Source: Leptasterias polaris
Lineage: Eukaryota > Echinodermata > Asteroidea > Forcipulatida > Asteriidae
NCBI GenBank assembly: GCA_037783415.1
Contig: JAZGTN010000069.1
Span: 744,001 to 808,000, forward strand
DNA length: 64,000 nt
Direction of reading: 5' to 3'
Shown: in pieces, positions 17,787 through 60,155 of the stretch
How positions within the stretch are numbered: the stretch's first letter is position 1
Layout of the letters: each line of letters begins with the position of its first letter
Translations under genes and position numbers: made by a program
The notes under the pieces: generated by a model
The model's database searches: none
Seen by the model: only the letters and a program-made list of their open reading frames with translations
Told to the model about the DNA's origin: nothing

Positions 17787-18144
17787 TGTAGCGTTGGCCC
17801 AGACCGTTCAGCAAGAGGGCGCCAGCACGACTCTGTGGTGGAGTCGGCCGATGATGGGAGGGCGCTGTGACACGGCACCGGTGGGAGCCGTGTTACCGAG
17901 CGACTCCTGGAGGGCGCTGTGACATGGCACCGTTGTGGAGCTGTGTCGCAGCAGGCCCCTCGCTGAACGGCTGGGACACCCGTCTCGTTGGGAAGACGTA
18001 GCCTAAACGTTCTTCTTGTCATGTGAGTCTTGGAGTAGAGACGTGTTGAATAAACCAGTAAAGAATTGACCGAGAAAACTGTATCCTGCTGTGTGTTTTT
18101 GTTGTGTTCTGCTGAGAAGAATCTGTGGACAAATTCTTGTTACA
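17787..18144 (+). repeat. 5' LTR of element B
   Basis: 358 bp, TGTAGCGTTGGCCC at the start and TTCTTGTTACA at the end. AATAAA is at 18049-18054. No clear TATA box was found. Confidence 0.95.
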
Positions 18145-18162
18145 TTGGTGGCAGCGACGGGA
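18145..18162 (+). promoter_or_regulatory. Primer-binding site of element B
   Basis: TTGGTGGCAGCGACGGGA lies directly after the LTR. The first 12 bases recur at the same place in elements A and C, so the three probably use the same tRNA primer. The tRNA was not identified. Confidence 0.6.
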
Positions 18163-18241
18163 CGGCAGGGCACTATCAAGACACTGGAATCAGGTAAAAA
18201 GATTGTTTTCTCTGTTGGGTTTTCACGTGTGTTTGGGTAGT

Positions 18242-21200: not shown

Positions 21201-24200
21201 GTGCACAAACCTATGGAGCGGAGCCTGTGAGTCAACTTCGCACTGCACAAGTCTATGGAGCGGGGCCCACGGCCCAGCTCCGCACCACACTACCAAAGCG
21301 GGTGGACCATGGCGTGGAAGCACAGTACGCCACCACAACCAACCCTCAGCACGTCAGGCTGGTTGACGCACCACCAGTGACTACAGCTACGGGCGGGGTG
21401 GTGCCGTCCGCAGAACGGGAGGGGGCGGAACCCCCCTCGGGAAGTCGGAGACCCATGATGCTTCCCAATAAGTTTGACGGTGGATCCTCCTGGTCCGACT
21501 ATCTAATCCATTTCGAGAGCGTTGCGACCGTCAACAGGTGGGGAGAGGCCGAGAAGGCGATGTTCCTGGCCTCCCATATGAAGGGCCCGGCCCAAGAAGC
21601 CTTAGCTGACATGGAGCCGGCAGCACGGAAGGAGTACCCTAGCATCCTGGAGTACTTCGAGAAGCGATTCGGTGTCACGGCCCAAATACCACTGCATCGG
21701 GCGCAGCTGTCAATGTGCCACCGTGGTAGTGGCGAGTCAATAAACAGCCTGGGACAGTCTATTCGGCGGTTGGTCGCCAAGAGCTACCCGAAACTGTCGG
21801 TCCAGGCTCGAGAGGATTTGGCCGTGGAGGCGTTTCGAAATGCTTTGGGAGACGAGCAATTGCAACGCCACGTGTTCTCGCGGGCGGCGACAACCTTGAC
21901 CGAGGCTATCACCCTCGCCACCGAGATGGAAGCGTTCCTGAAGTCCCAGGAGCAGAACAGAAGGAACAGACAAGAGGCCAACGATGTCCGGTCAGTGGCA
22001 CAGCCACCACCACCACAGCCGGGGGCCACTGGGGTTAACACAGCTGCCCCGCGCCGAGTTTTCGATCGTACGATGGTGGAATGTTTCGGGTGCCATGAGT
22101 TGGGCCATATCCGACGGGACTGCCCGGTCAGGAAGCGGGGATTTAATACCCCGCGACAAGTGCCGAACGAGCCTAAGTCGACACAGCAATCAACCGGCAG
22201 AGGCCTCTCGCACCAAAAACCGGAGACGTCGCTGGGAAGGAACTACGTGTCAGGGTGGGTCGCATCGTTGCCCGTCCAATTCCTATTGGACACTGGGGCT
22301 TCGGTAAGTCTAATTTCGGGACGGGTCTACGATGAGCTCCGCGGGTCAGAACGGCCGAACCTCCAACCTCCACCTTCAACGTTGAGACAAGCAGACGGGA
22401 GCTCGATGCAGGCCCGGGGGAAAGCTGGGTTTGAACTCCGCATTGGAGATCAATCCTTGAGCCAGGTCTGCATTGTGGCTAATCTCGAGCCAGATGTGAT
22501 CCTAGGAATTGACTTCCTCTCGGCAAACCATTGCCAGTGGCGGTGGGGTGACAACACAGTGATGATCAACGGAAAGGCAGTAGATCTCGGGGACAGTGGA
22601 CAGCGGCCGTCGGTGGCGAGGATACAGGTCACGGAGAATTCGATTGTGCCGGCCGGGCACGAGGCAATCGTTCGGGGGGTGGTGAAGGGTAGTTACCGGA
22701 ACCGGATTGGCATGGTGTACCCCGACTTGGAGTCCACCGACGGGTGCCCGGTGGCAGTGGCAGCAGGCGTGGTGGACGTGGGTTCCGGTGCCCTGCCGGT
22801 CCGTGTGTTCAACCCGACGCCCGACCCTGTCACGATTTATAAAGGGACCCGCCTGGCGCTTTTCTCTCCACTGGACGCACATGACATACTGGAGCCGGAA
22901 CCGGAGCTTCCGCAACCCACAGTATGTCACCTATCTACCGCAGCCCAAAGAAGTGGCACAGTAAACCAAGGGGAGGTTCCCGGCCACCTGCGGGACTTGC
23001 TGGACCGTGGGGCCGCACACTTAGACAGCTCGGAACGTGCCCAGTTGGCGGAGTTGTTGACACAATACTCCGAAGCTTTCACGGGACCCGACGGCCGGCT
23101 GGGGAAGACGGCGCTGGCTGAGCACCGCATTGATACGGGAGCGGCCGTGCCAGTCCGGCAGGCGGTTAGGAGGCTGCCGATCCACAAGCGGGCCGAGGCC
23201 GAGAGGCAGGTGGAGAAGATGCTGCAGGATGGCGTCATTGAACCCTCCACTAGCCCGTGGTCCTCACCGGTGGTACTGGTCAAGAAGAAAGATGGGACGG
23301 TCAGGTTTTGTGTCGACTACCGGAAAGTCAACGAGGTTACGATCAAGGATGCGTACCCCATTCCCCGCATAGACGATAACCTCGATGCATTGAGCGGGGC
23401 GAGGTGGTTCAGTACGCTTGACTTGGCCAGCGGATACTGGCAGGTGAGCATGGGGGAGGCGGACCGGGAGAAGACGGCCTTCGGCATGCACAACGGGCTG
23501 TATCAGTTCAACGTGATGCCGTTCGGGTTGTGCAACGCACCGGCGACCTTCGAGCGCCTGATGGAGAGAGTACTTGCGGGGCTCCAATGGCAGGTAGCCG
23601 TCGTGTACCTGGACGACGTGATCGTGTGGGGAAAGGATTTTCAGGAACACTACAAAAGGTTGGCCACAGTCCTGGAACGCTTTCGCAATACCGGTCTTCG
23701 ATTGAAACCAAAGAAGTGCGATCTTTTTAAATCGGAGGTGTCTTTTCTCGGACACCGCGTGTCGGCTGCAGGGGTCCGCACAGACCCCACGAAAGTGGCG
23801 GTTATCCGTGGTTGGCCTCGCCCTGCGAATGTGACACAGGTCCGGAGCTTCCTGGGGCTGGCTTCCTACTACCGGCGGTTTATCCCTGACTTCGCAGAAA
23901 TCGCCCGCCCCCTGCATGGCCTTACCAACAAGACACCACGGGCCTTTGCCTGGACAGAGGACTGCCAGAGTGCTTTTGAACACCTCAAAGATTCACTGAC
24001 GACGGCCCCAGTGCTATGTTACCCCAGCACAGACCACTGCTACATCCTGGACACCGATGCTAGTCAGTGCTCAATTGGCGCGGTACTGTCACAGACGCGG
24101 GACGACGGGGAACGGGTGGTGGCTTATGGCAGCCGCACCCTTACCAAGGCCGAACGCAACTACTGCACCACACGGAAAGAGTTGTTGGCCGTGGTCCACT

Positions 24201-27200
24201 TCGTCCACTATTTCAAGCACTACCTCCTTGGCAAGCGGTTTCTCCTCCGAACCGACCACGGGTCTCTACGATGGTTGTTCCAGTTCCGCGAGCCCGAAGG
24301 CCAGACGGCGAGGTGGATTCAGCGGCTGGGGTGTTACGAATTTGACATCCAACACCGAGCGGGTAAGAAGCACATCAACGCAGACGCCGTTTCGCGGATT
24401 CCTTGTGGGCAGTGTGGAAGGTCGAGGGAGGAGACTCAGGAGTGCTACCAGAATGACGCTCGGGAGCCCGGCCGGCCGGACCGCAACCAAGCTACCACCG
24501 GGGGGGCGCCTCCCGAGCACCTACAAGTTCATGCCGTGACAAAGCAACCAGGCCGGGAATCCGGAGTCGAGGAGGGCGAACCTCTGGCACCGGAGGGACT
24601 CATTTCCCTCTGGAACGGAGAAGAGTTGCAACGGGACCAGCGAAGCGATCCGGAGCTTCAGACAGTCTTGCAGTGGCAAAATGACGGGGCCGCCCGCCCC
24701 CCGTGGCGGGAGGTTTCGGCACTCGACGAGGCCACCAAATTTTGGTGGGGAAAGTGGGAGCGGCTCCGGGTGGTCGAGGGAGTCCTACGGATCGAGTGGG
24801 ATCAGCCTGGCGGTGGGAAGCCAGCATGGAAGGTAGTGGTTCCACGGGGGAAGAGGGCCGAGGTGCTACGGCTGGCTCACGACAGCCGGACCGCTGGCCA
24901 TCTGGGCGTGACCCGGACATTCAACCGGTTGCAACAGGCTCCGATATTCTGGAGGGAGATGCGTCGCCACGCAGAGGAGTGGTGCCGGAAGTGCCACAAG
25001 TGTGGATCGAAGAAGCCACCTCCAAAGGCCTTGCGGGCCCCCCTCCAACAATACTTGGTCGGGGCGCCGATGGAGCGCATCGCCATCGACCTCACCGGCA
25101 GACTCCCAAAGACACAACGGGGGAATAGCAGCATCATGGTGGTTGCTGATTATTTCACCAAGTGGGTCGAAGCCTTCCCGATTCCTGACCAGAAGTCGGA
25201 GACGGTGGCAAGGGTTTTGGTCGAACAGGTCATCACGCGGTTCGGTGTCCCGAGAGAGATCCACACGGATCAGGGCAGGGAGTTCGAGGCAAGGCTCTTC
25301 CAGGGAGTCTGTGAACTCCTCGGCATACACAAGACCCGCACTACACCGTTCCACCCACAGTCGGACGGCATGGTTGAACGTTTCAACCGTACCGTTAAGA
25401 CGATGCTGAGCCTCTTTGTGGCTGAACAACAAGATGACTGGGACGAACACCTTCCCTATGTGATGATGGCCTATCGGTCGTCCCGCCACGAGAGCACCAA
25501 ACTCACGCCCAACATGTTAATGCTGGGGAGAGAAGTGGAGCTGCCGTTGGACCTGGTGGTGGGGTTGCCGGACGGCGACCAAGACTCCGTGGTGGAGTCG
25601 CACGAGTATGTAGAAGACCTCCGGGCTGGGTTGGAGGCGGCTCATAGCCTGGCGCGCCGCCACTTGCGGACGAGCCAGATTTACCAGAAACGCCAGTATG
25701 ACAGGCACGTGAACGAGGCCCGCTACAGTCCAGGACAGCCGGTGTGGCTCTACACACCCAACAAAAAGGTGGGTCGGACACCCAAGTTGCAGTGTTGGTG
25801 GACTGGGCCCTACGTGATCCTTCAGGCGAGCGACCAGGTTACCTATAGAATCCAGAGGTCTCGTCGGGCTAGGGCCAAGGTGGTCCACTATAATCGGTTG
25901 AAGCCCTACCTGGGCGAGGCGAATACGGGGTGGTGGGCACGCTGTCGACCCACCACTGCAGCACCGGATGAGCGGGCACCCGCCGGCCCCGAGGCTGGGG
26001 ACCACACCGACCAGGAAGAAGTGGAGACGCCGACAACCCAAACTGGCGACCAAGCAGACCAGGCAGAAGTGCCTGTGGGGAAAGAGCCAGATGGCCGGTT
26101 AGACCAGGAGGGGGCACCTCCCGAGACGAGGAAGGACAGCCAGCTGGATTTGGAACAGATGCCCATTCCGGGAGCTGACGACCAATCGGATGATGTCACC
26201 GGCCGTGGCCCGGAGCCCGGACCTGAGGCGGGGAATGGCCGAGGAGCGGACGTGAGGACAGAAGACCAGGAGATGCCCTCGAAACGGAAGGAGAAAGGAG
26301 CGGGAGAAACCAGTGTTGGAGGGGGTGGGCAACCACGGCCGGCACCCGGGGAGCCGGAAACCATTCCTAGTCGCACGACACGGTGCGGGCGTGGGGTGAT
26401 CAAGCCTAGCAGATATTGCCTTCCTGTTACTGACAAGGTTTTTTTTGGTGTTTCTCTCCCCAGGATGGAGAAGGTGGTCGAGTGTCGACAGTGTGGCAAG
26501 CGTTTCACCCGGACCGGGAACCTGAAGCGTCACCTCAATACCTCCTGCCCGGTCACACAGCCCTGTAAACCCTTCACGTGCCCGTTTGGATGCGGGAGGG
26601 ATTTTTACAGGGAGGATATGCGGCAGCGCCACCTACGGTACTGCATGCGGAGGCCGGGTCAAGTGGCGACGGTCCTGGTAGAGGACCAGCTGGAGGTCCA
26701 CGCCAGTGATACGGAGTTGGAGATGGAGGGCATGGAGCAGGGAGGGGTTGGGGACCGTTCGGAACCCCCCTCCGACGCTCCGAAGCCCCAGTCAGAGGAC
26801 GACCACCAGAGATCTCCTCCCCGAGACCGACGACGGGCCACCCAGGAGCGACCTTCCACGGAGCCGGGTGAGCAGACACCACCCCCGCCAGTTCTCGACC
26901 GAGAGGGCCCTCACGGAGACCAGATCCACACGGGGAGGTCTCCGTCGTCAGGCTCCCACCGGAGCCAGGAGCCCCTGGAGTCCTCGGGGCAACGCTGGAC
27001 CGGCCGGCAACGAAGGATGCCGCAGCAGAGGTACAGGGCGCCCCAGGCCGAGCCTGTAGCCTCCACCCGTCCACCACCGCCTTTGCCTTTGGGTTTGGGG
27101 CTACAATATAGGATCCCGGCGGGCGCCCGCATCACCATGCCGGATGGCTCTGATTGGACGCTGCCGGTGGATGGCACCCTCGCGGCCCGCCGGTCCTTCC

Positions 27201-27613
27201 AAGACGCCGCCGTCCAGTCGGAGCCACATCACCATCGCCGGGACCAGTCCACACACATGGACCCACCCCTGTGTGAACACATGCGGAACGAATGGCGGCT
27301 GGAGCACACGGGGGTGGGAACCGATGGAGACGGTCATCGTCTTTTCCGCGCCCGGGTGACGCACACCTACGAGGTCCCCGGACGCCTGCTCCAGACATAT
27401 GACGGGCAACAGTACGGCCAGTACTTCGTGGATCCGACAGTCGCCAGCCAACCGTCTTTGGGAGGGTTGTTGCCCCCAGGAGCTCCTCCACCGACGAGAT
27501 ACCCGAGGAACGTCCCACAAGCCTTCTGGGAAGACCTGCGCCGCCAGACGGAGACCCAGCGACAGCCACCGCCAGGGACGCCCGGACCAGGGACGCAAGG
27601 CCAACAGCCATAG
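18242..27613 (+). CDS. Element B Gag-Pol-zinc-finger polyprotein (3123 aa)
   Basis: Start chosen at 18242 (MASDSAHAED), after the LTR and leader; an earlier in-frame ATG at 18125 lies inside the LTR. Residues about 60-210 hold six degenerate units of about 23 residues (GSGRSLTESF-like). Residues 284-1011 are 52 perfect-length 14-residue repeats. The Gag capsid domain is about 1071-1240, the zinc knuckle CFGCHELGHIRRDC 1281-1294, and the protease DTGAS at 1350. RT has YLDD at 1789-1792. RNase H has DTDAS at 1937. Integrase has its zinc-binding region at about 2213-2254 and D2283, D2343, E2379 (DD35E), then a GPY/F-like domain. Two C2H2 fingers follow from 2742. Gag and Pol share one frame with no frameshift or stop. 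Confidence 0.95.
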   Translation: MASDSAHAEDTPSQTQTMNGPFWFTVDEISSVLGLGEAGGSISCDEEGQLRVPMDRNVPSTSGLAGAGGSERYLTESFRLSPRRTGTEWAEGSGWSHTEPFRLPQENTATGAEGSGRSLTESFWRSPQHTETTRAEGSVRYLTEPFRLPPQCTDRGAGRGSGRVPREPFCASPQHAPETGEGLGRSHTEPTFSPPWYSAGDIRARLFSEPGHPHPGHAVVGQLSSGPFFRERAQSTPQRVQGPRSHGTEVRGLVDQRRTAQAYETENLIQLDPAHFFCAEPVNQLRTVQTNGAEHTAQLRTTQTYGAEPTAQLRTAQAYGVEPMAQLRTVQTNGAEHTAQLRTTQTYGAEPTAQLRTAQAYGVEPMAQLRTVQTNGAEPTAQLRTVQTYGAEPTAQLRTAQTYGAEPTAQLRTVQTYGAEPTAQLRTVQTNGAGPTAQLRTVQTYGAEPTAQLRTAQTYGAEPTAQLRTAQTYGAEPTAQLRTVQTYGAEPTAQLRTAQTYGAEPVNQLRTVQTYGAEPVNQLRTVQTYGAEPTAQLRTAQTYGAEPVNQLRTVQPNGAEPTAQLRTAQTYGAEPVNQLRTVQTYGAEPVNQLRTVQPYGAEPTAQLRTAQTYGAEPVNQLRTVQTNGAEPVNQLRTVQTYGAEPVIQLRTVQTNGAEHTAQLRAVQTYGAEPTAQLRTVQTYGAEPVNQLRTVQTNGAEHTAQLRTAQTYGAEPVNQLRTAQPYGAELVNQLRTTQPYCAEPVNQLRTAQTYGAEPVNQLRTVQTNGAEPVNQLRTAQPYGADFVNQLRTTQPYCAEPVNQLRTAQTYGAEPTAQLRTAQFYGAEPVNQLRTAQTYGAEPVNQLRTVQTNGAEPVNQLRTAQPYGADFVNQLRTTQPYCAEPVNQLRTAQTYGAEPTAQLRTAQPYCAEPVNQLRTVQTNGAEPTDQLRTAQFYGAEPVNQLRTAQTYGAEPTAQLRTAQPYGAEPVNQPRTTQPYGAEPVHQLRSAQTYGAEPVSQLRTAQVYGAGPTAQLRTTLPKRVDHGVEAQYATTTNPQHVRLVDAPPVTTATGGVVPSAEREGAEPPSGSRRPMMLPNKFDGGSSWSDYLIHFESVATVNRWGEAEKAMFLASHMKGPAQEALADMEPAARKEYPSILEYFEKRFGVTAQIPLHRAQLSMCHRGSGESINSLGQSIRRLVAKSYPKLSVQAREDLAVEAFRNALGDEQLQRHVFSRAATTLTEAITLATEMEAFLKSQEQNRRNRQEANDVRSVAQPPPPQPGATGVNTAAPRRVFDRTMVECFGCHELGHIRRDCPVRKRGFNTPRQVPNEPKSTQQSTGRGLSHQKPETSLGRNYVSGWVASLPVQFLLDTGASVSLISGRVYDELRGSERPNLQPPPSTLRQADGSSMQARGKAGFELRIGDQSLSQVCIVANLEPDVILGIDFLSANHCQWRWGDNTVMINGKAVDLGDSGQRPSVARIQVTENSIVPAGHEAIVRGVVKGSYRNRIGMVYPDLESTDGCPVAVAAGVVDVGSGALPVRVFNPTPDPVTIYKGTRLALFSPLDAHDILEPEPELPQPTVCHLSTAAQRSGTVNQGEVPGHLRDLLDRGAAHLDSSERAQLAELLTQYSEAFTGPDGRLGKTALAEHRIDTGAAVPVRQAVRRLPIHKRAEAERQVEKMLQDGVIEPSTSPWSSPVVLVKKKDGTVRFCVDYRKVNEVTIKDAYPIPRIDDNLDALSGARWFSTLDLASGYWQVSMGEADREKTAFGMHNGLYQFNVMPFGLCNAPATFERLMERVLAGLQWQVAVVYLDDVIVWGKDFQEHYKRLATVLERFRNTGLRLKPKKCDLFKSEVSFLGHRVSAAGVRTDPTKVAVIRGWPRPANVTQVRSFLGLASYYRRFIPDFAEIARPLHGLTNKTPRAFAWTEDCQSAFEHLKDSLTTAPVLCYPSTDHCYILDTDASQCSIGAVLSQTRDDGERVVAYGSRTLTKAERNYCTTRKELLAVVHFVHYFKHYLLGKRFLLRTDHGSLRWLFQFREPEGQTARWIQRLGCYEFDIQHRAGKKHINADAVSRIPCGQCGRSREETQECYQNDAREPGRPDRNQATTGGAPPEHLQVHAVTKQPGRESGVEEGEPLAPEGLISLWNGEELQRDQRSDPELQTVLQWQNDGAARPPWREVSALDEATKFWWGKWERLRVVEGVLRIEWDQPGGGKPAWKVVVPRGKRAEVLRLAHDSRTAGHLGVTRTFNRLQQAPIFWREMRRHAEEWCRKCHKCGSKKPPPKALRAPLQQYLVGAPMERIAIDLTGRLPKTQRGNSSIMVVADYFTKWVEAFPIPDQKSETVARVLVEQVITRFGVPREIHTDQGREFEARLFQGVCELLGIHKTRTTPFHPQSDGMVERFNRTVKTMLSLFVAEQQDDWDEHLPYVMMAYRSSRHESTKLTPNMLMLGREVELPLDLVVGLPDGDQDSVVESHEYVEDLRAGLEAAHSLARRHLRTSQIYQKRQYDRHVNEARYSPGQPVWLYTPNKKVGRTPKLQCWWTGPYVILQASDQVTYRIQRSRRARAKVVHYNRLKPYLGEANTGWWARCRPTTAAPDERAPAGPEAGDHTDQEEVETPTTQTGDQADQAEVPVGKEPDGRLDQEGAPPETRKDSQLDLEQMPIPGADDQSDDVTGRGPEPGPEAGNGRGADVRTEDQEMPSKRKEKGAGETSVGGGGQPRPAPGEPETIPSRTTRCGRGVIKPSRYCLPVTDKVFFGVSLPRMEKVVECRQCGKRFTRTGNLKRHLNTSCPVTQPCKPFTCPFGCGRDFYREDMRQRHLRYCMRRPGQVATVLVEDQLEVHASDTELEMEGMEQGGVGDRSEPPSDAPKPQSEDDHQRSPPRDRRRATQERPSTEPGEQTPPPPVLDREGPHGDQIHTGRSPSSGSHRSQEPLESSGQRWTGRQRRMPQQRYRAPQAEPVASTRPPPPLPLGLGLQYRIPAGARITMPDGSDWTLPVDGTLAARRSFQDAAVQSEPHHHRRDQSTHMDPPLCEHMRNEWRLEHTGVGTDGDGHRLFRARVTHTYEVPGRLLQTYDGQQYGQYFVDPTVASQPSLGGLLPPGAPPPTRYPRNVPQAFWEDLRRQTETQRQPPPGTPGPGTQGQQP
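19091..21274 (+). repeat. 42-bp tandem repeat array in gag of element B, 52 units
   Basis: From the first CAG CTC at 19091 to the last at 21275 is exactly 52 x 42 bases. The consensus unit starts CAGCTCCGCACTGTACAAAC and continues CTATGGAGCGGAGC, then either CCACGGCT or CTGTCAAT. GCTCCGC and GCGGAGC are inverse complements, giving each unit a potential 7-8 bp stem. The array lacks stop codons in several frames on both strands, which creates long spurious antisense frames (for example 18389-21250). Confidence 0.97.
26428..26463 (+). promoter_or_regulatory. Putative branch point, pyrimidine tract and 3' splice site before the zinc-finger ORF of B
   Basis: TACTGAC (26428-26434) is followed by a T-rich tract, TTTCTCTCCC and CAG at 26461-26463. 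The branch adenine is about 30 bases from the AG. One base later comes the in-frame ATG at 26465. The same layout occurs in A (6046 down to 6004) and partly in C (41898). The donor site is not known; it would be expected in the leader or early gag. Confidence 0.55.
26465..27613 (+). CDS. Element B C2H2 zinc-finger ORF in env position (382 aa)
   Basis: It is in the same frame as pol, so it is made as the polyprotein tail, but its own ATG directly follows a splice-acceptor-like site. Residues 1-60 carry CRQCGKRFTRTGNLKRH and a second finger (CPFGCGRDFYREDMRQRH). The middle is rich in Pro, Glu and Arg. A C-terminal folded-looking segment (RLFRARVTHTYEVPGRLL) may correspond to RVRRRKIVEVYNEGNLIL at the end of the C protein; this is weak. 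It is not a chromodomain and has no signal peptide or membrane segment, so it is not an envelope protein. Nucleic-acid binding or target choice are possible roles. Confidence 0.65.
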   Translation: MEKVVECRQCGKRFTRTGNLKRHLNTSCPVTQPCKPFTCPFGCGRDFYREDMRQRHLRYCMRRPGQVATVLVEDQLEVHASDTELEMEGMEQGGVGDRSEPPSDAPKPQSEDDHQRSPPRDRRRATQERPSTEPGEQTPPPPVLDREGPHGDQIHTGRSPSSGSHRSQEPLESSGQRWTGRQRRMPQQRYRAPQAEPVASTRPPPPLPLGLGLQYRIPAGARITMPDGSDWTLPVDGTLAARRSFQDAAVQSEPHHHRRDQSTHMDPPLCEHMRNEWRLEHTGVGTDGDGHRLFRARVTHTYEVPGRLLQTYDGQQYGQYFVDPTVASQPSLGGLLPPGAPPPTRYPRNVPQAFWEDLRRQTETQRQPPPGTPGPGTQGQQP

Positions 27614-29938: not shown

Positions 29939-29983
29939 ATCCCCCAGGATACAAAGGGACAGACATCCACTAAAGACAGGATA

Positions 29984-31913
29984 ATGAAAGATAAGTATAT
30001 TGATACTGTTCTCACAAACCATGATGGATTCGAATTAGAGCAAGGCGAAGTTGGCAAATTTGTCAAAGGCAACTTACGTAAACACATTGCTTTCTGGAAA
30101 GATAATTGTAGTAACACATTTATAATAGACGTTATAAATACAGGATACAAAATTCCTTTTAAATCTTTGCCAGTTCCATCCTTTCATCAAAATAACCGCT
30201 CTGCCAAACTACATTCACAATTCGTTACCGAATCGGTTTCACAACTGCTAAACGAAGGCAGAATTGTTCATTGCAATGACAAACCAAAGGTAGTTAGTCC
30301 ACTTTCTGTTTCAGTTCAGGCTAACGGTAAGAAAAGGCTGATCTTAGATCTACGTATAGTAAACCTTAACGTTTGGAAACAGTCTGTCAAATATGAAGAT
30401 CTTAAAACAGCAAAAACCTACTTATCAACAGGCAGATACTTATTCTCATTTGACCTCAAAAGTGGATATACCATCATGTTGAAATTTTCCATGAACACAC
30501 AGAATATCTGGGTTTTTCATGGAATGGTCAGAACTTCAAGTTCACAGTTTTACCATTTGGTCTCACAACTGCACCATACATATTCTCAAAAATCATGCGA
30601 TGCCTAGTTAAAAAATGGAGGAGTGAAAGTAAAGCTATTGTTGTATATTTAGACGATGGCTTAGGTATTGCAGACAACCTAGAGGTTGCACACAAACATG
30701 CTAAAGAAATTCATGGCGACTTATGCAAAGCCGGTTTCATTATCAACGCAGAAAAATCACAATGGGAACCAAAACTGTCTTGCCAATGGCTAGGTTTCAA
30801 ACTAGACACTTGCAGTGGTACAATCTGTCCCCTCCCGAGAAAAATCCAAAGTGTCTTAGACACAATTACCACCCTGGATAACTCTAGAAAAGTGCACGTC
30901 AAGTTAGTTCCGAGTCTTGTAGGTCAAATTATAGCAATGACACCTGCATTAGGAAACGTCACGAGGCTCATGACGAGGTCTATGCTCAAGGATGTTCAGT
31001 CAGCCATATCTTGGTCTAGCTATATATCATTGTCACCAGACAGTTTGGCAGAATTGTCATTTTGGTCAACTATAAGCTTTTTAAGACCGGTTAAAATGAC
31101 ACTTGACACATTATACCACGCAGTTGTATTTTCAGACGCAAGTGATATAGCTGGAGCTGGCTATGTAGTTGGCGTGGGAGATAGGGTAGCAAGAGGCGCT
31201 TGGAATTACATAGAAAAACACAAAAGTAGCACATGGAAAGAACTTAGGGCAGTTGAGATAGTTCTGAAGAGCTTCACTTGCATCCTTGCAGACAAAAAGA
31301 TAAAGTGGTTCACAGATAGCCAGAATGTTGTCCAAATTGTAGAAGTTGGAAGTGGCAAATCTATTCAACATGCATTGAAAACAATATATCTTTAAAGATC
31401 GATTGGATTCCACGTTCAGAAAATGAAAAAGCAGATGCACTCAGTAGAATAGTGGACCATGATGATTGGTCATTATCAGAACTACACTTCTCAAACCTTG
31501 AAAGATTATGGGGTCCCCATTCCATCGACAGATTTGCGAGCTTTCAAAATAATAAACTGCCAAGATTTAACTCAAGGTTTTGGAATCCAGGCTCTGAAAG
31601 AGTAGATGCTTTCACACAAATGTGGTCAGGAGAAAACAACTGGCTCGTTCCACCTATATCACTCATTGCTAACACAATTCTACATGTAAGAGCCAGTAAG
31701 TCAAAAGGAATACTAATTATCCCCGAGTGGCATTCCGCCCCATTCTGGCCCCTCCTAACAAATAATCAAGGTAAATTTGTCCCACAAATCAAAGACTGTA
31801 TCCACATTTCTGCAGCATATCATTCGTTCATTTGTGGACGAAGTGGGCGTCCACTCTTTGCGGAGAGATACCCAAAGTTTAGCATGCTAGCATTAAGATT
31901 ATCCTTTCAGTAG
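29984..31913 (+). pseudogene. Element E reverse transcriptase and RNase H, two frameshifts
   Basis: Frame one (29984 on) includes KRLILDLRIVN and FDLKSGY. A shift near 30465 moves the frame, which then carries the active site YLDDG (near 30645) and the RNase H (SDASDIAGAGY, TWKELRAVE, WFTDSQN). A second shift near 31375 leads into the frame ending at 31913, which has the domain typical of the DIRS/Ngaro group (SIDRFASFQNN, FWNPGSERVDAF, PEWHSAPFWP). The spacing is otherwise complete, so the element was probably active until fairly recently. Confidence 0.8.
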
Positions 31914-31961
31914 CACAAATATCTAGACGGTTAGGCACACAGGAGCCAATGATACTTAACT

Positions 31962-32815
31962 GACAATGCAGGCTGTAGAGCCTTGATAATACTTGGCTAA
32001 TGATGTAGGTTGTAGAGCCTTGATAATACTTGGCTAATGATGTAGGCTGTAGAGCCTTGATAATACTTGGCAATGATGTAGGCTGTAGAGCCTTGATAAT
32101 ACTTGGCTAATGATGTAGGCTGTAGAGCCTTGATAATACTTGGCTGATGATGTAGGCTGTACAGCCTTGATAATACTTGGCTAATGATGTAGGTTGTAGA
32201 GCCTTGATAATACTTGGCTAATGATGTAGGCTGTAGAGCCTTGATAATACTTGGCTAATGATGTAGGCTGTAGAGCCTTGATAATACTTGGCTGATGATG
32301 TAGGCTGTAGAGCCTTGATAATACTTGGCTAATGATGTAGGCTGTAGAGCCTTGATAATACTTGGCTAATGATGTAGGCTGTAGAGCCTTGATAATACTT
32401 GGCTGATGATGTAGGCTGTAGAGCCTTGATAATACTTGGCTGATGATGTAGGCTGTAGAGCCTTGATAATACTTGGCTAATGATGTAGGCTGTAGAGCCT
32501 TGATAATACTTGGCTAATGATGTAGGCTGTAGAGCCTTGATAATACTTGGCTGATGATGTAGGCTGTAGAGCCTTGATAATACTTGGCTGTTTATGTAGG
32601 CTGTAGAGCCGTGATAATAATTGGCTGATGATGTAGGCTGTAGAGCCTTGATAATACTTGGCTGATGATGTAGGCTGTAGAGCCTTGATAATACTTGGCT
32701 GATTATGTAGGCTGTAGAATCTTGATAATACTTGGCTGATGATGTAGGCTGTACAGCCTTGATAATAACTGGCTGATTATGTAGGCTGTAGAGCCTTGAT
32801 AATACCTGGATGTGG
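31962..32815. repeat. 37-bp minisatellite between RT and recombinase of element E
   Basis: About 23 units of the type TTGGCTAATGATGTAGGCTG plus TAGAGCCTTGATAATAC. Units vary at a few positions (AATGATG, GATGATG, GATTATG). Degenerate units continue to about 32950. There is no open frame through it, so it is a non-coding spacer. Confidence 0.93.
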
Positions 32816-33051
32816 CAATGACTATGCTATGATGTCAGGCTGCAGAGCCATGATAATACCAAAATGAATAACCAGCCTGCAGAATTTTGATAGAATCAAG
32901 CCTATGATGGCAGGCTCAAGAGCCCCAATTGATAAAGTAACGATGACAGTAAAGTCTTATAATCTAGTTCCATGATGATACTCAGTAGCACCATTAAAAC
33001 AGGCATATAGTCTAATTGCTTAAGATGACGTACTTATAAGAAAGATTATGT

Positions 33052-34068
33052 ATGTATAAGAAAGATGATGCTGGTTTAAATATTTTTCTCCAGGGGCCAT
33101 GGAATAATGAATCCGGACAGATATCGGATAGCCTCATGAAACATCTGTTTGAAAAATTGCCAGGAGTGGTATTAAACGACAGAGCCGATTCAACAACTAC
33201 CAAGTATGCACATGGATTTCAGAGGTGGGCAAAATGGGCAAAAGCCAGAGAACAACTAGTACCAGTGATGCCAGCATCCCCACTACATGTAGCACTATAC
33301 CTGCTGAGCTTGATGCAATCATCAGACACACCCTCCCCGATAATCACAGCTTTCTACAGCATAGCCTGGGCACATCGAGTATCCTCGCTAACATCACCAA
33401 CAGACCATCCACTCCCAAAGTCGGTGCTGGAGGCAGCCAAGAGAACACTGAACAAAACGCACAAAGGCAAAGAACCTCTGTCAATAGAGACAATACATAA
33501 ACTTTGTCAAAAAATCCCCCTAGAAACTTCGTCATTATTTGATATAAGAACTCTGACCTTTATTGTCATAGGATTTGCAGGCTTCCTCAGGTTTAACGAA
33601 ATAACTAATCTTAAGCGTTCAGACATCATTATATATAACACTCATATTGCTATCTTTTTAGAAAAGAGTAAGACTGATAAATACAGAGAAGGCGCATGGG
33701 TTTTAATAAGTAGAACCAACAGTAATACATGCCTGGTCAGGATCCTCGAAAAATTCCTAGATATGTGCGGCTTTAAAGAGGACGCCGAAGAATTTGTATT
33801 CTGCTCGTTATCTAAAACCAAATCTGGTTATGCCGTAAAAAAAGATAGTAAACCCATTTCTTACACGAGACTTAGAGAATTGTTTAATTCAGCAATCAAA
33901 AAAGTAGTTCCTAATGTTGAAGCCTTTGGACTTCACAGTCTTCGCTCTGGAGGAGCCACACAGGCTGCTTTATCTGGTATACCAGATAGGCTCATTAAGA
34001 AGCACGGTCGCTGGGCTTCAGAGACAGCAAAAGATCTCTACATAAGAGAAGCAATAAAAGACAAGTGA
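33052..34068 (+). CDS. Element E tyrosine recombinase (338 aa)
   Basis: This is the enzyme that would integrate the circular cDNA of a Ngaro/DIRS-like element. The catalytic set is visible: R180 in GFLRFNEI, H295 and R298 in LHSLRSGGA, H318 in KKHGRWASE and the nucleophile Y330 in KDLYIRE. The N-terminal part (about 1-130) is the SAM-like DNA-binding region. The frame is unbroken, unlike Gag and RT. The start may be an ATG slightly upstream or downstream of 33052. Confidence 0.88.
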   Translation: MYKKDDAGLNIFLQGPWNNESGQISDSLMKHLFEKLPGVVLNDRADSTTTKYAHGFQRWAKWAKAREQLVPVMPASPLHVALYLLSLMQSSDTPSPIITAFYSIAWAHRVSSLTSPTDHPLPKSVLEAAKRTLNKTHKGKEPLSIETIHKLCQKIPLETSSLFDIRTLTFIVIGFAGFLRFNEITNLKRSDIIIYNTHIAIFLEKSKTDKYREGAWVLISRTNSNTCLVRILEKFLDMCGFKEDAEEFVFCSLSKTKSGYAVKKDSKPISYTRLRELFNSAIKKVVPNVEAFGLHSLRSGGATQAALSGIPDRLIKKHGRWASETAKDLYIREAIKDK

Positions 34069-38459: not shown

Positions 38460-41400
38460 GAGTCATCACAATTTTGCCACAGGTGACGGCATGGTGGAAT
38501 CGGTCCAAAGCCTTATTACGAAGAATACGGTGTTGCTGGCACCGACACTGACTTTGGCAGATTCACCGGAAGTGCCTCTGCGAGTCTTGAATCCTACGGA
38601 GAAAACGGTTGTTCTTTACAAAGAAAGGCAGGCCTATTTCAGGTAATAGATGCAGTTGGACCGCATATGACATCCGAAGAGGATTACATGTGTAACGCAA
38701 AGGATGAACACGTCAACCAAATAAAGACAAAGGAAAGGAAGACATCAAACCCGGTCAATCATGAGCTCCCCCAGAGCCTACAGGAAATGCTGCAGCATGG
38801 GTCTACCAAACTGAACATCGACGAGAGGTCACAACTGACACAGCTCATAAGGGAAAATCAGTGCCTCTTCTCTCTATCCAAGGACGACATTGGACTCACT
38901 TCTCTGACAGAACACTCAATTAATACCGGTGATGCAAGTCCAATCAGGCAGGCAGCACGACGATTGCCGATATTCCAGAAGGAAACAGCGGAGTGAGAAA
39001 TCCACAAGATGATGAAGGCCATATCATAGAACCAGCATCAGGACCCTGGGCTTCGCCTATTGTGCTTGTACGGAAACAGGACGGCTCTGTTCGTTTCTGC
39101 GTGGATTACCGCCGCCTAAATGCTATAACCAGGAAAGATGATTATCCAATCCCTCGCATCGACGACTCTATTGACACCCTGGCTGGATCCAAATATTTTA
39201 CAACGTTGGATTTGGCATCTGGTTATTGGCAGGTGCCAATGGACAATGAAGACAAGGAGAAAACTGCCTTTGCAAGCCACTGTGGACTCTATCAGTTCCG
39301 CGTCATGCCGTTCGGACTATGCAATGCCCCTTCAACTTTTGAGCGCTTGATGGAGAAAATACTACATGGGCTTCAATGGCAAATCTGTCTTGTTTACTTG
39401 GACGACATCATTATTTTCTCCAAGACCTTCGAAGAACACATCGAACGACTCTGAGTAGTGTTCGAACGTATTGGAGGAGCGAGCCTTAAGCTGAAGCCAG
39501 AAAAATGCCACCTGCTACAACAGGAAGTGTTGACCAGGGTGTCCGAACTGATCCAAGTAAGACACGTCAAATAGATGACTGGCCAGTCCCTAAAAGTACA
39601 CAAGAAGTCAAGAGATTTTTGGGTCTCTCTTCCTATTACAGGAGGTTTGTGGCCGTGTTTGCCGCTCTGGCAAGATCGCTGCATAAACTCACAGAGAAAG
39701 GAAGCACTTTTCAATGGACGAAAGAATGTCAGACGGCCTTTGAACAACTGAAGCACAACAATTACCTCCACGCCCATTCTAATTCATATCCGACGCTTCA
39801 TGGCAAATTTGTAATTGACACTGATGCATGCAAGCAACTACGGGATCGGAGCAGTGCTTAGCCAGGAACAGAATGGGCGTGAGTGTGTCATTGCATATGC
39901 TAGCCGTGCTTTGACACAACCAGAGAGAAATTATTGCGTCACAAGAAAGGTGTTACTTGCCGTGGTACACTTCATTAAACACTTTCGCCCATATCTGTAT
40001 GGACAACGGTTTCTACTTCGAACAGACCATGGGTCCCTTCGATGGCTGTTTAACTTCAAAGAGCCGGAGGGCCAGGTTGCCATCAGATGGCTCCAAGTCT
40101 TTGCAGAATACGACTTTGAAATTGAGCATCGACCGGGAGTACGACACGGGAATGCCGACGGTCTGTCCCGAGTTCCCTTTGAGTCTTCCCAGAACTTCAC
40201 AGAGGAGATGGGGGATGGTGGACATGGACCACAGCACTGCAGCGAACAACCACTACCGTTTCCCACGCCTGAGGTACAACAGAACAATTCTTCAAGCGCC
40301 CCAGAGCAGAATTATATAGTTAGGGAGGTAGCACCGTTCAGTTGGTTACAAGGATACACATCTGGTGACCTGAGAGAAAGACAATTGGAGGACTCGGTAC
40401 TGCAAACGGTCATTGGCTGGCTAGAAAACAAGAAACCGAAGCCATTATGGTCGGAAGTATCCGCCGAGGGGACCTGGCTCAAGGCATTATGGAGCTCATG
40501 GCAACAACTGCGCCTTAGTGACGGGCTGTTATACCAGCGTTGGAATGAGGACCCTCCAAATTTTAGATGGCGCCACAGACCTTGGGTGACAAGGTGGTGC
40601 AAGCACTGTCTTGAATGTGCTAAGCGTAAATCTCCACCAAAGAGGGGGAAAGCTCCATTGAAACAACAGGTCTCCGGAGTCCCAATGGAACGAATAGCCA
40701 TGGACATCACAGGACCATTCCCAGCTACAGACCAAAGGGAGAACAGGGGGATTTTGGTCATCTCCGATTACTTTACAAAGTGGACTGAAGCCTTTCCGTT
40801 GCGGGACATAACCGCTCAGACGGTCGCGGATGATGTCTTCGTTAGAGAATTTGTTTGTCGATTCGGTGTCCCAAGACAAGTACACACAGACCAGGGTCGG
40901 CAGTGCGAAAGTCAGCTGTTCCATGCAATTTGTACAATGCTTGGCATCGACAAGACTCGGACAAGTGCATACCATCCCCAAAGCGACGGTCAAGTCGAGC
41001 AGTTTAATCGAACCCTCAAAGACATGCTAACCGCCTATATAGCTGATAACCAGAAGGACTGGGACCTTCACGTACCATTGGTCATGATGGCATATCGGGC
41101 TTCGGAACACAGTAGCACCGGTGAAACTCCAAACAACATCATGACTTTGGGTAGAGAGGTGGAGTTACCAGTTGATCTCATCTCCGGCTACCCTGAAGAG
41201 CCAAGGGGGACCTCGGATTACGCTTTTGAACTAAGGGAAAGGTTTCGTACCACGCATGACAGGGCAAGGGTACAACCTCAAGAAAGCAGCCATACATCAA
41301 AAACGTAACTACGACTTGCCTGGCCAGCAGAAGAAGTTTACCCTGGGAACCACTGTGATGTTAACCGTCGAAGCAAAAACCGTGGGGTTGTCACCCAAAC

Positions 41401-54563: not shown

Positions 54564-56152
54564 CTGATGGAAACAAAATCAATGTCATTTGCAGTTTGTA
54601 TTTGAGAACTTTTATGAAAGAAAATCTTTTGTTTGGTTATCAAGAGTAACTTCTCTTTTCATTTTTCACCTTTGTGACAATGAGTTTAAAGTTATGGTTT
54701 ACTTTCTTGTTTCAACCTAGTTCGTCAGATCACTTTTGCTTTGTTTGTTCATCTCAAATGATTATTATTCTTATATTTGTTGTTGTTTATTTAAACTTCC
54801 TAATAATTACTTGTATATTTGCATTGGAACTAAATGTTGAGTTGAATTGAAATCGAATTGGTTTACAAAATCAAAAGTTGACAGTGTTTTTTGTAATGTT
54901 TGTGAATAAAACAGAGTGCACGTTCTGACAGGATTTAGTTGAAGTTTTTTACAGATATGAAAGATTTTGCTTGAAATCAAATTGACTGTTTTTTCTATTG
55001 GTCTTGAGCCAAAATGAGGTCTAAGACCAAGACAGTGGGGTCCGAGACCAAGACCAAGACCAGGAAGTCCGAGATCATGCATTCTCGAGACCAAGACCAT
55101 GGACGTTTGGTCTCGAGACTACAACATTGCCATTGGTAGTGATGGGCTTGTCATGATATGGTTTGCTTGTTTGTATTCCTGCAAAAGCTGGCAACAGCCA
55201 ACAAACAGCCAATCTCACTCATACAAACATTGGTTAAATGTTTAGCCCAGGTTGGACTCTCCTCTTGAGCCAAAATGAGGTCCAAGACCAAGACAGTGGG
55301 GTCCGAGACCAAGACCAAGACCAGGAAGTCCGAGATCATGCATGCTCGAGACCAAGACCACAGAAATTGGTCTCGAGACTGTTCTCCAGACCAAGACCAC
55401 AAACATGACAAACAGCAACGACTAGTACTTATGTACATACTACGTGTGTGACATTTTTTACCTCCCTCAAACTCGTGTCAACATCAGACGCTCTGTCTGT
55501 GTCTCTCTATCCGCTGTGTGGACGGGAGGGATGGCGGGGTAAACACTAAACAACATAAACACAACACTACCGGTTTAGTACCAACCAACCATCCATACCA
55601 TGATCATCCATGAGACAAAAAATGCTACCAAAAGCATGTCCTTTATACAATTTCAACAAATAGATCAACGCCAAAAGACCTATAAACCATTTCTATAAAT
55701 TACAATGTAAAAACTGGACAGAAAAATATGTACTTACCAGAGTTTTTTGATAAAATAATTTCAATTTGAAATACATACGATAAAAGCAGACGACAGCTCA
55801 CAATGTTTATGATATGTTTGTTCCGGGTATTAACTACGCATGTGCAGTAAGTGGTGCAAAGTGAGGGCGCCCTATCTTGGAACAAACAAAACAAGAAATG
55901 CCTTATTTTTTATTTTGTTGCAAAGTTTTTTTCGGGGGTAGTTAGCAAAAATTCCAAACGGCTGACCTGCCAAAAATTGGAAAGAGTTCTGAAAATCAGT
56001 CGTCCAAAAAATTTGTTGATTGGTTTTCAAGCAAGAGGTTGAGGTGAGTGAGAGACGATATTTTGGAGTATTTTTGAATTATTCCTTTAGCAATGTAAAT
56101 AGCGCCACCAACCGTCCAGGTCCATGAAACTGAAGGACATGAAAATGAAAAC
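54564..56152. other. Region between the minus-strand gene and MED21
   Basis: Contains the paired repeats at 55002-55380. If the minus-strand gene starts near 55540, the two genes are arranged head to head and may share a promoter around 55540-55900; that is speculative. GAG/GTGAGT at 56041-56049 and a TTCCTTTAG acceptor at 56084-56092 could bound a 5' UTR intron of MED21. Confidence 0.35.
55002..55380. repeat. Pair of 119-bp direct repeats rich in GACCAAGACC
   Basis: Copies at 55002-55120 and 55263-55380 begin CTTGAGCCAAAATGAGG and end TTGGTCTCGAGACT. They are about 142 bp apart, contain internal GACCAAGACC iterations and are nearly identical. Confidence 0.85.
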
Positions 56153-57803
56153 ATGGCTGACAGAGTAACTCAATTACAAGACGCTGTCAATCAGGTATTT
56201 ATTTGTGTTTTATAAGACTTTGAAGATATGTTATATACTTATTTTGGCCATATAATGAAAGGAAATGGTCTCATATGTTGTATTGACTTGTATTGTATTT
56301 CCCAGTGACCCATTACATACCGAGAAAAATGTAAACAATTAAATGTTTGCCAAATTTTCGGACACTTTAACTTACTAAAACAGTAACACCCCCCGAACAA
56401 AGATTTGACTTGTACGTGTTAGCCCAAATAACGTTACAATAAGAAAGGTAAGAAAGAATTAATGAACAGTACAAAGTACGCAAAATGCTTGATGGAAGAG
56501 TGTACTTTAATCTACTCATGATGCCTATATTTTTGGAAATTTTGTTTTCTAATTCCTTTATATGGAATTTCCAAGAAAGACATTCATCAATATAGACACC
56601 AAGAAATTTAGTATGTGACACTTACCTCAAACCAATGTATATTCTCTTTTAGCCCATACTTTACAGTTCCATGCCTCTTGTTGAGGCCACACTCCTACCT
56701 AGCCAAACTTCCAAGTTAATATTCAGAAAAAAGGAAATTTGCGCTTCATAAAGCGTTCTGAAATAAACCATAAATAACTTAATAGATATGTGTGCTAAGC
56801 ACTGTATACTCAGTACTTACACGAGTTCTGTAAAAAAAAATCCACAGGCAAATCACTCGGCTGGAATTCGAACCCACGACCTTTGCATTGCTAGAGCAGA
56901 TGTCTTACCACATATCTAACTTACTGTTTTTACAGCTTGCAGAACACTTCTGTAACAGCATTGGTGTCCTACAGCAAAGCGCCACACCAGCCAAGTTCCC
57001 CGGCTTTGAGAAGCAAGGAGTAACGCTTCAGCAGGAGCCAGGACTTGGTCCACAAGAGGACTATACCCAGCTGTTTGCTCAACTCATAGCTAGGACAGCC
57101 AAAGATATTGATGTCCTCATTGACTCGCTGCCAAGTGAAGAGTCAACTGTTGAACTTCAGGTCAGAGTGATTTTCAGATTTAATAAAGATGACGAGATTT
57201 GCTGTGTGCTGTTGTTAATAACTTACCGTTAAAAATATCATGATTAGTTTGCTTTACCGTTCCTCTGCAACAAATTTTGTGCATAAACTACAGGTATGTC
57301 CTGTACATTACTGTGAGTGTTGCCATAATTCTTGAGAAAACAATAAGCTTGGGTGAGTGTTGATTCTATGTGTACAATTATACATGATCACTTTGCTCAC
57401 TTGATGCCTTTAAATTCTCTTTGAAAATGCCATAAAACAAATATATATTTCAACTTGAGACACCACAAATCTTTTAAAGTGTTAGATTTATTTGATGCAG
57501 GATTTGTGTTTTACATTAATAAATATTCTGTGTAGTGAAGAGAGTCATGGTCTTAAATTGTTTTTATTTTTTTGGATACAGCAAGCATCCTTGAAGAACC
57601 TTGAGGTGGAGAATCAGGAGGCAGCCCATAAGCTTGGTGAGGTGGTACAGAGAGGAGAGGCCCTCCTTGTCAGGATACAGGAGGCACTTGGTGATATCGC
57701 CGAGGCTCAACTCAGAACACAGAGTGCAAAGACGGCTAAACAGACACAAGAAGCAACAGCTGTTAAGCAGGAAGAAGAGAGTGTTGACACTGTACAAAGA
57801 TGA
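56153..57803 (+). CDS. MED21: Mediator complex subunit 21
   Basis: 162 residues from three exons: 56153-56194, 56936-57160 and 57582-57803. Introns have GT-AG ends and fall between codons. The protein starts MADRVTQLQDAVNQ and contains FCNSIGVLQQ and the highly conserved IARTAKDIDVLIDSLPSEES; the rest is a long coiled-coil helix. MED21 (Srb7) pairs with MED7 in the middle module of Mediator, which links transcription factors to RNA polymerase II. The length is close to the usual size of about 145 residues, with a longer polar C-terminus. The stop overlaps the start of CDIN1. An out-of-frame ATG at 56138 opens a small upstream frame that overlaps the MED21 start, if the mRNA includes it. A SINE ends just before exon 2. 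Confidence 0.95.
56748..56920 (-). repeat. tRNA-derived SINE in MED21 intron 1
   Basis: On the minus strand there is an A-box-like GTGGTAAGACATCTG, a B-box GGGTTCGAATTCC (complement of 56862-56874), then a T run and AAGTACTGAGTATACAGTGC. The head ends about 15 bases before the exon 2 acceptor AG at 56934-56935. I recall similar SINE tails from echinoderm genomes; this was not checked. Confidence 0.7.
57800..57803 (+). other. ATGA stop-start overlap of MED21 and CDIN1
   Basis: TGA at 57801-57803 ends MED21 and ATG at 57800-57802 starts CDIN1, so the four bases ATGA belong to both. There is no room for a separate promoter or polyadenylation site between the two frames. Termination-coupled reinitiation is the simplest way to translate both from one mRNA. 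Confidence 0.95.
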
Positions 57804-58651
57804 AAAGAAGCGAGTATAAAGAGATAATTCAATGCTTTGAGTCACAACAGTGTGATGGCACAACAGAATCTTTGGCGCAGGTCAACAAAGTGTTTCCAAC
57901 TGTGTCCCATAACACACTAATCAGTATTTATTCTCAGTATGTCCAGCTAAAGACTAAGAAGAACTATGGTGTCTATAGCTCCCCGTACAAAGCACAGAAG
58001 TACTACACTCAGTACCAGCAACGCAGCTTAGATCCCTCCAACACTCAAGGCATGGTATTAGTGCAATTTGCCAATGAGCTTGATCTAAGCCCTGCACTTC
58101 TTGCACGTGTCGTACTTGAGAGGTATCTCTTTCATCTTTCTGGCAGTGAGGCACCAGTCCCTAAGAATAGACTGACTAAAATGTTGCGTGATCCTTGTCT
58201 GATAATGGACCCAGCATTGTCCCTTGAGGTACAACAGTGTTCCTTAGTGGATTCCAGCTATGGGCCGGTAGTGGACAGCATTAAGCATTCCATTGGAGAA
58301 GAGCTTGAAGTCCACTTGAAAAAGATCCTCCAGGATCATCATCTGACATTTCTAGATGAAGACGATATGAGAAAGAAAGGTTACGACAAGACGCCAGACA
58401 TTAAACTCCAAGTGCCAATAGCTGTTGGAGGAAGGGTTGTTAATTGGATTGAAAGCAAAGCGTTGTTTGGTGATGACCACAGTCATGAGAATTACATGAA
58501 AGACCAGTTATGGAGCTATGTAAATCGTTTTGGTTCTGGTCTTGTTATTTATTGGTTTGGCTTCATCGAGGAGCTTGCTACAAGTTCTGAGCAAGGCATC
58601 ATCATAGCTAACGACTTCCCCAAAACATTCACAATATTGACTCCAGCTTAA
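57800..58651 (+). CDS. CDIN1: CDAN1-interacting nuclease 1 homologue, single exon
   Basis: 283 residues, close to the human protein (C15orf41, about 281). The family is a PD-(D/E)XK-type nuclease related to archaeal resolvases. It binds codanin-1 and is linked in humans to congenital dyserythropoietic anaemia type I. Visible landmarks are ARVVLERYL, KMLRDPCLI, YGPVVDSIKHSIG, KGYDKTPD, WIESKALFGD and FGSGLVIYWFGFI. Catalytic candidates are D200, E218 and K220. The start MKRSEYKEIIQCF matches the natural N-terminus and overlaps the MED21 stop by four bases, ATGA, in a different frame. No intron is present, whereas vertebrate CDIN1 has many. It probably shares the MED21 mRNA. Confidence 0.94.
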   Translation: MKRSEYKEIIQCFESQQCDGTTESLAQVNKVFPTVSHNTLISIYSQYVQLKTKKNYGVYSSPYKAQKYYTQYQQRSLDPSNTQGMVLVQFANELDLSPALLARVVLERYLFHLSGSEAPVPKNRLTKMLRDPCLIMDPALSLEVQQCSLVDSSYGPVVDSIKHSIGEELEVHLKKILQDHHLTFLDEDDMRKKGYDKTPDIKLQVPIAVGGRVVNWIESKALFGDDHSHENYMKDQLWSYVNRFGSGLVIYWFGFIEELATSSEQGIIIANDFPKTFTILTPA

Positions 58652-60155
58652 TCTGAAACAGAAAAAAGCTTATTAACAATTTCTCAAAACAAAGTCCTGT
58701 TGCAAGGTTCAAACAAACGTTTAATTCATTTGATTGGAGGGGTTTATTTCTTGGGAAATTATTCTACTGGCAGCGATTGTAATAAACAAAGACGACACCA
58801 AACAAATATTTCTTTCACCATTATATGTGCATTTTTTATTTAATACCTTGGTTGGTTTAAGAGTCTTTATAAAGACACTTGAATATAACACTTGAAAAAA
58901 TAGAATCAATTTTCTTAATTACGTCATGTTCTTCACATGAGAAAGTTAGCGAAAAATAGTTGTTTATAATCCTTCACCTGTATTCGTTATATAAATTTTA
59001 CATTTCTGTCAAAAAAACATGTTCCCTTTTCAGATTTATGCTAAAAACAGAAAGCGCTGCCAGCCAAAAAAAGAGTGTGGCACATTTACAAAAGCTTTGC
59101 TCTACACTGGTTGAATAACTATAATGTACACTTGCTCTGCTTTTTTTCTTTTAAGTATAAATTAAGAACACTGTCAAATGTATTCTTGGTTTAGAATAAT
59201 TTCTGTGGGAGATGAAACTTTACATCAAGAGCTCAAAATCCTTCTTCATGTTGCTGCCAATGTATTATGCTGGTCAACTTGGCACAAGTTAAAAGCTGCT
59301 TTTTAATAAAAATTATGGTAGTTTTCATTTTGAAAGATTTACTTGATGACTTTTGCATGTAAACACTCCAGATTTTAAGTAGGAATATAGTGGTATACAT
59401 GTGCATTATTTTAGAGTAATGCGTGATCAAATTTGAACATTATACACTGTTAATATTTACCCCAAAACGAGATGAATTTGAGTATTACATTGTAGATGTA
59501 AAACATAGAAGTAACAGTGCGCAATTACATGTACAGACTGTTATGTTTGTTATTAAAACATGCTTGGTGTAAACAATAATTGTATTCAAAATTGCTTGAT
59601 CATTGGCCAGCGATCAAAACTAAATACTTTTTAATTTGTTTGTAACAAATCTTCGGCTAAACAGCTGGATGCCAAGATAAACAAAATACGTGTCCTTAAG
59701 TAATACAAGGTTTGAGAACCAACTTTCACATTCATGTAGCCACACGTTACACCGTGCTGTCCTTTTGTTCAAACTGTTTGGAATCCCCACAATGAGCACT
59801 AGGTAAGAGTGCTGTTGACACACACCTGCTGTGAGAACACACACTTTGAGTTTAGATAATGATCTACGGGAAAATAAGTTCACAAAAACACCCTACATGT
59901 GTATCTACTCATGCCATATAAAACAAGTTGTGCACTACAAACAGAGCAGTTCTATTTTCTCTCTCCATTTCTTCCCAAGACCACAAATTTCACTTACTTC
60001 TCAAAAATATGTATTACACATTTATCATTAGCACTTATGTATTATTGCAACTTGTCAGATTATGTTACTTTTACATACGGTATGACAGTTACCTTCCAAT
60101 TAAAACAACTAAAGTACTCAAGATATAAAACCAAACAATTCATTTAAGCATTCCA
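58652..60155. other. Region downstream of CDIN1, no gene seen
   Basis: Probably includes the shared 3' UTR. AATAAA at 58781-58786 is a candidate polyadenylation signal. The rest is AT-rich with short frames of no recognisable content. Confidence 0.45.

Follow-up and report, generated by a model that had tools for sequence, protein, structure and literature searches.

FlyBase lists 159 dicistronic gene pairs in Drosophila, mostly of dissimilar genes, and among loci whose transcripts are all polycistronic the stop-start gap ranges from -34 to 319 nt, according to the available part of the source (PMC4528330). In the human termination-reinitiation mRNAs of Gould et al. 2014 (PMC3923131, available text), stop and start overlap, and the five cases in question combine a second frame in +1 with AUG runs and aspartate-rich protein ends. 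Overlapping stops and starts also characterize the TURBS of calicivirus and influenza B. Leaky scanning explains green-algal bicistrons, in which the first frame is AUG-poor and has a weak start, according to a source that also invokes it for fly stoned/Snapin (PMC11892635, available text). Finally, the human RPP14/HsHTD2 mRNA encodes a short RNA-machinery subunit (124 aa) followed by a larger unrelated enzyme (168 aa); a 4-nt stop-start overlap is not described in the accessible portion of that source (PMC4705651).

Here, we analysed a window of 64,000 nucleotides from the genome of the starfish Leptasterias polaris, in which the genes for MED21 and CDIN1 meet at an ATGA. As annotated for the fly loci, this arrangement would place two proteins on one spliced mRNA, and its gap of -4 lies within the fly range; the genes and the phylum are others, and the fly pairs have cDNA or RNA-seq backing. 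The order of a short RNA-machinery subunit and a larger unrelated enzyme recalls RPP14/HsHTD2, in a different gene pair. The features of the locus are as follows.

56124..56168, plus strand: upstream frame with AUGs at 56124, 56139 and 56145 and a common stop TAA at 56166-56168, overlapping the MED21 start
56153..56194, plus strand: MED21 coding exon 1, start-codon context AAAACATGG, strong (A at -3, G at +4)
56936..57160, plus strand: MED21 coding exon 2
57111..57113, plus strand: in the spliced sequence, the one AUG lying between those of MED21 and CDIN1
57582..57803, plus strand: MED21 coding exon 3, stop TGA at 57801-57803
57800..57803, plus strand: ATGA stop-start overlap of MED21 and CDIN1
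57800..58651, plus strand: CDIN1 (C15orf41), 283 aa without introns, motif residues of GYDKTPD and ESK kept
58781..58786, plus strand: first AATAAA 3' of the CDIN1 stop, likely the common poly(A) signal

The MED21 coding sequence consists of three coding exons and 162 codons, with all junctions in phase 0 and GT/AG, and the CDIN1 frame runs from ATG to TAA over 283 codons without an intron. One exon thus holds two complete frames on the same strand, the MED21 frame arriving from two earlier exons, with no spacer between them and the CDIN1 ATG beginning one base before the MED21 stop TGA. An earlier note on this DNA had claimed that MED21 exon 3 runs into CDIN1 without a gap and with four bases in common, which is exact to the base. 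Its claim that the CDIN1 start is the conserved one also stands: an in-frame TGA at 57785, five codons 5' of the ATG, makes a longer CDIN1 N-terminus impossible on MED21 exon 3, and the N-terminus aligns to the starts of other CDIN1 proteins. By eye, a 'gtccgagaccaagaccaag' repeat was observed in two nearly identical copies 5' of MED21, at 55020-55400.

Elsewhere in the window, two open frames (2555-3280 and 10626-11693) each encode a fibrinogen-C domain (PF00147, E 1.7e-67 and 2e-66), the latter together with a PAN domain. A retroelement frame at 614-1942 carries an integrase core, and frames at 18116-27613 and 39815-41308 were labelled as retroelement by eye; 18116-27613, as well as the minus strand of 4852-9975, contains many head-to-tail repeats like AEPVNQLRTVQTYG. 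At 29939-34068, a reverse transcriptase (partial PF00078, frame 30454-31395) is followed by a tyrosine-recombinase (PF00589, 33040-34068), an order which we take to be that of a DIRS-like element.

Both protein identities are firm. MED21 matches PF11221 (Med21) with E 7.2e-27 over residues 1-129 of 162, and its best solved match is to Mediator subunit 21 chains (E 4e-45). CDIN1 matches PF14811 (TPD) with E 4.3e-56 and shows no variation in the columns of GYDKTPD and ESK across 14 aligned proteins, placing it as a family member with the predicted nuclease motif residues. The CDIN1 sequence reads ESKALFGD, with the Leu shared by one relative (P0001), and the other 12 of 12 aligned proteins read ESKASFGD. 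Another relative (P0009), on a contig of 8,776 bases, is 71-75% identical, lacks the N-terminal quarter and diverges from the family past ESKASFGDDH; it is a broken, spliced or misread copy, probably from another starfish.

Intron-free copies of genes with several exons are frequently dead, and one could suppose either that CDIN1 is such a copy adjoining MED21 by accident or that the junction is an assembly error. We consider this highly improbable, since the CDIN1 frame is intact over 283 codons with its motif residues kept, it is the only CDIN1 copy detected in the assembly, and a 97% identical protein with the identical N-terminus MKRSEY exists elsewhere (P0001). MED21 is likewise 98% identical to Asterias rubens MED21 (P0121; differently sized contig), which has the identical C-terminus VDTVQR. 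An assembly error at about 57800, named by the earlier note as something that could overturn its reading, is therefore unlikely, as the end of A. rubens MED21 and the start of P0001 both agree with the junction. Two partial MED21 matches on small contigs (P0246 and P0247) stop short of it.

Other ways of joining the two frames were rejected. A joined MED21-CDIN1 query retrieved eight long proteins, scored on MED21, with PF14811 in none of those listed, which argues against a fusion protein. Readthrough of the MED21 stop would meet a TAA seven codons on (by eye), and for a frameshift fusion the stop at 57785 leaves slippage possible only within 12 nt 5' of the ATG. A search for starfish DNA in viral contigs gave three pattern matches and no relatives.

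The overlap itself is only mildly surprising. Among the 120 CDIN1 relatives listed, 69 begin with MK and 70 have Lys as residue 2. An ATG followed by AAR always holds a TGA shifted by one base; a MED21 frame in that phase must stop there, and the overlap needs no selection for coupling given the usual Met-Lys start of CDIN1. The statement of the earlier note that such arrangements are rare in animals was also too strong, in view of the Drosophila pairs reported in the available part of PMC4528330.

It is probable, judging from the sequence, that MED21 and CDIN1 are co-transcribed as one bicistronic unit. A bicistronic mRNA, as the earlier note had proposed, is the likeliest reading of a locus with no intergenic DNA and no AATAAA from the MED21 stop through the CDIN1 stop. 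Two weaker poly(A) variants, TATAAA at 57815 and ATTAAA at 58400, both lie within CDIN1; because there is no spacer, the 3' end of any MED21-only mRNA would have to fall within CDIN1, and these variants could mark it. The reading is also backed by the absence of a CpG-rich promoter-like stretch and of a convincing splice acceptor 5' of CDIN1. The CpG observed/expected ratio is 0.6-0.8 near the MED21 5' end versus 0.2 directly 5' of CDIN1, on small counts and in a window where other CpG-poor stretches exist. No pyrimidine-rich acceptor was found in MED21 exon 3, where the AG at 57799 scored 0.53 and the other AGs at most 0.60, by a score that separates weakly, as the true exon-3 acceptor reaches only 0.67. 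The same AG scores, with their weak separation, apply to a trans-splice acceptor such as a spliced-leader operon would need ahead of CDIN1. We regard the CpG and acceptor scores as weak support for one unit.

These same observations bear on the alternative that CDIN1 has its own mRNA, transcribed from a promoter within intron 2 or exon 3 of MED21 or, in another form, from an alternative first exon spliced to an acceptor 5' of 57800, with the overlap being a matter of packing. Such an mRNA seems to us rather unlikely, although precedents exist: 69 of the 159 fly dicistronic loci also yield a separate mRNA for one gene, and 45 further loci yield separate mRNAs for both (PMC4528330, available text). 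Within starfish, isoform X1 of Patiria CDIN1 carries an N-terminal extension, MCLSKT, that could not be coded within the end of MED21 except for an overlap of 1 nt, and in L. polaris an AG lies directly 5' of the CDIN1 ATG (57798-57799). However, the missing pyrimidine-rich acceptor (for what the weakly separating score is worth) and the CpG-poor DNA just 5' of CDIN1 argue otherwise, TATAAA is absent between 57161 and the CDIN1 ATG, and an mRNA of its own would still leave CDIN1 on the mRNA of MED21.

If one mRNA carries both frames, the question becomes how ribosomes would reach the second. One answer is stop-start coupling, in which a ribosome ending MED21 at the UGA remains bound to the mRNA, moves one base back and initiates again on the AUG, so that CDIN1 output would be a fixed fraction of MED21 output. 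The ATGA geometry itself invites this answer, and the available text of PMC3923131 reports that 22 of 24 tested human overlapping-frame mRNAs expressed the second frame, 5 of these 22 in dependence on the first stop; UGAUG is also found in the cellular GAD mRNA (PMC5972666, available text). In addition, the protein ends leave room for an overlap of either 1 or 4 nt in Acanthaster and for one of 1 nt in Patiria, which is compatibility rather than proof because codons permit a 1-nt overlap nearly always. Nevertheless, we consider coupling unlikely at this locus. The UGGGA core, present in TURBS, is absent from 57161-57860, and the fold of 57690-57860 is no better than that of shuffled sequences (z -0.32). 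Unlike the five human cases, the starfish pair has its second frame in -1 and a single AUG rather than an AUG run, and the MED21 end is without aspartate runs. Reinitiation downstream of long frames is described as "presumably very rare" in the accessible part of PMC5972666, and the overlap already follows from the usual Met-Lys start of CDIN1. Taken as a sign of termination-reinitiation, the ATGA therefore falls short, with no UGGGA core, an ordinary fold and a Met-Lys start that explains it.

A wider form of coupling can be imagined, in which a coupled MED21-CDIN1 bicistron is shared across starfish with a switched signal, UGAUG or UAAUG in Patiria and AUGA in asteriids, and with the upstream frame shifting ribosomes from MED21 to CDIN1. 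Isoform X1 of Patiria CDIN1 has six extra N-terminal residues and so a different 5' end, a point against the scheme that we propose below, and if its MCLSKT-MKL start shares DNA with the MED21 end, only a 1-nt overlap fits. We hold this wider form to be distinctly doubtful; if it held, starfish as a group would possess a natural switch, at the level of translation, between a Mediator subunit and a nuclease linked to chromatin.

Scanning fits somewhat better than termination-reinitiation as a route to CDIN1. Upstream AUGs lie at -29, -14 and -8 relative to the MED21 start, their common stop lies at +13, and the AUG at 56145 is present in any unspliced MED21 leader of at least 8 nt. Downstream, MED21 has one internal AUG in 483 nt, that at 57111 (+217 in the spliced sequence), which is in a weak context (T at both -3 and +4) and opens a 20-codon frame ending early in exon 3; with so few AUGs, MED21 would be passable to scanning ribosomes. 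By comparison, the median across 28 kinase-domain stretches from this genome is 21.1 AUG per kb, and not one of 205 overlapping 480-nt control windows (from 23 kinase-domain stretches) has one AUG or fewer; when only out-of-frame AUGs are counted, 12 of the 205 windows are as low as MED21. Synonymous resampling of MED21 gave a mean of 1.33 AUG with P(<=1)=0.58, and a mean of 0.75 with the gene's own codons. Depletion of AUG through selection on synonymous codons was therefore rejected, the low count being accounted for by the amino-acid sequence alone. Internal Met is also absent from MED21 of Amphiura, Anneissia and Ptychodera, in which CDIN1 is on other contigs. The AUG-poor MED21 frame is thus a lucky pre-condition rather than a demonstrated adaptation.

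In this respect MED21 resembles the first frames of the green-algal bicistrons, one of which also contains an out-of-frame weak AUG (PMC11892635, available text). Leaky scanning calls for an AUG-poor first frame, as found here, and for a weak first start; by contrast with the algal cases, the AAAACATGG context of MED21 is strong, and it is preceded by an overlapping upstream frame. The strong MED21 start speaks against simple leakage, and we think that the upstream frame plus some leakage would be the likeliest route to CDIN1.

In the scheme that we propose, one capped, spliced mRNA would start 5' of MED21 and end past the AATAAA at 58781, with MED21 as its first frame and CDIN1 as its second. 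Some scanning ribosomes would leak past the MED21 AUG, and others would translate the short upstream frame that overlaps it and terminate 13 nt past the MED21 AUG. These post-termination ribosomes would resume scanning, with about 470 nt in which to regain initiator and one weak AUG left before that of CDIN1; reinitiation at the ATGA may contribute besides scanning. An mRNA with no introns past its first stop escapes splice-junction-dependent decay, and the intronless state of CDIN1 behind the MED21 stop would spare this mRNA in the same way. The full scheme, one transcription unit with CDIN1 read mainly by scanning ribosomes, stands in our estimate at even odds.

To place the arrangement among other species, we considered the origin of CDIN1 and its linkage to MED21. 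In the L. polaris assembly (629.7 Mb in 334 contigs), there is one CDIN1/TPD place, MED21 exons 2 and 3 match here only, and no intron-bearing CDIN1 parent was found. For human C15orf41, mutations are reported in exons 5 and 8, which means at least eight exons, on the available text of PMC7261414, so the intronless starfish CDIN1 looks derived. An intronless copy of an intron-bearing gene is what a retrogene would be, and in-place intron loss would look identical. Scars of retrocopying were absent, as expected for an old event: sequences 57641-57800 and 58652-59200 have no common word of at least 9 bases that could represent a flanking duplication, and 58652-59400 has no A run longer than 7 as a poly(A) trace. 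In the starfish lineage, CDIN1 may have come to follow MED21 as a copy devoid of introns, or may have shed its introns in that position, and the original CDIN1 would have been lost.

Among the 17 species paired by name, which are those in both best-120 lists (best 120 of 714 and best 120 of 580 matches), the two genes are on different contigs in 15 and on the same contig in 2. The latter are Patiria miniata (19308314) and Acanthaster planci (672612), where the contigs are of equal size and hence the same, which denotes linkage; adjacency goes beyond equal size. The split-contig species are Amphiura, Apostichopus, Anneissia, Ptychodera, Liolophura, Lineus, Tubulanus, Mactra, Pinctada, Owenia, Solemya, Chamberlinius, Gadus, Engystomops and Leptodactylus, including a brittle star, a sea cucumber, a crinoid and a hemichordate; Apostichopus and Gadus are unsafe because the MED21 cluster of the former and the CDIN1 cluster of the latter span two contigs. 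Branchiostoma and Petromyzon were excluded owing to an ambiguous or missing contig. The CDIN1 proteins listed include none named as A. rubens, from which we conclude nothing. A single event in the starfish lineage is the simplest reading of this distribution.

Our searches of the open-access literature listed no title or abstract that describes the MED21-CDIN1 pair or a native echinoderm bicistronic gene. The coupling of a Mediator subunit to CDIN1 suggested by the earlier note found no link there; the listed papers naming both concern, by their titles, other subjects. Starfish MED21-CDIN1 is a testable case of an arrangement that is known but uncommon in animals. If one mRNA makes both proteins, the locus would offer a compact test of how animal ribosomes gain access to a second full-length frame behind a conserved housekeeping one, and one-frame-per-mRNA annotation may miss CDIN1 in such species. 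It would also mean that a gene devoid of introns can take up a place behind another and persist with no promoter of its own.
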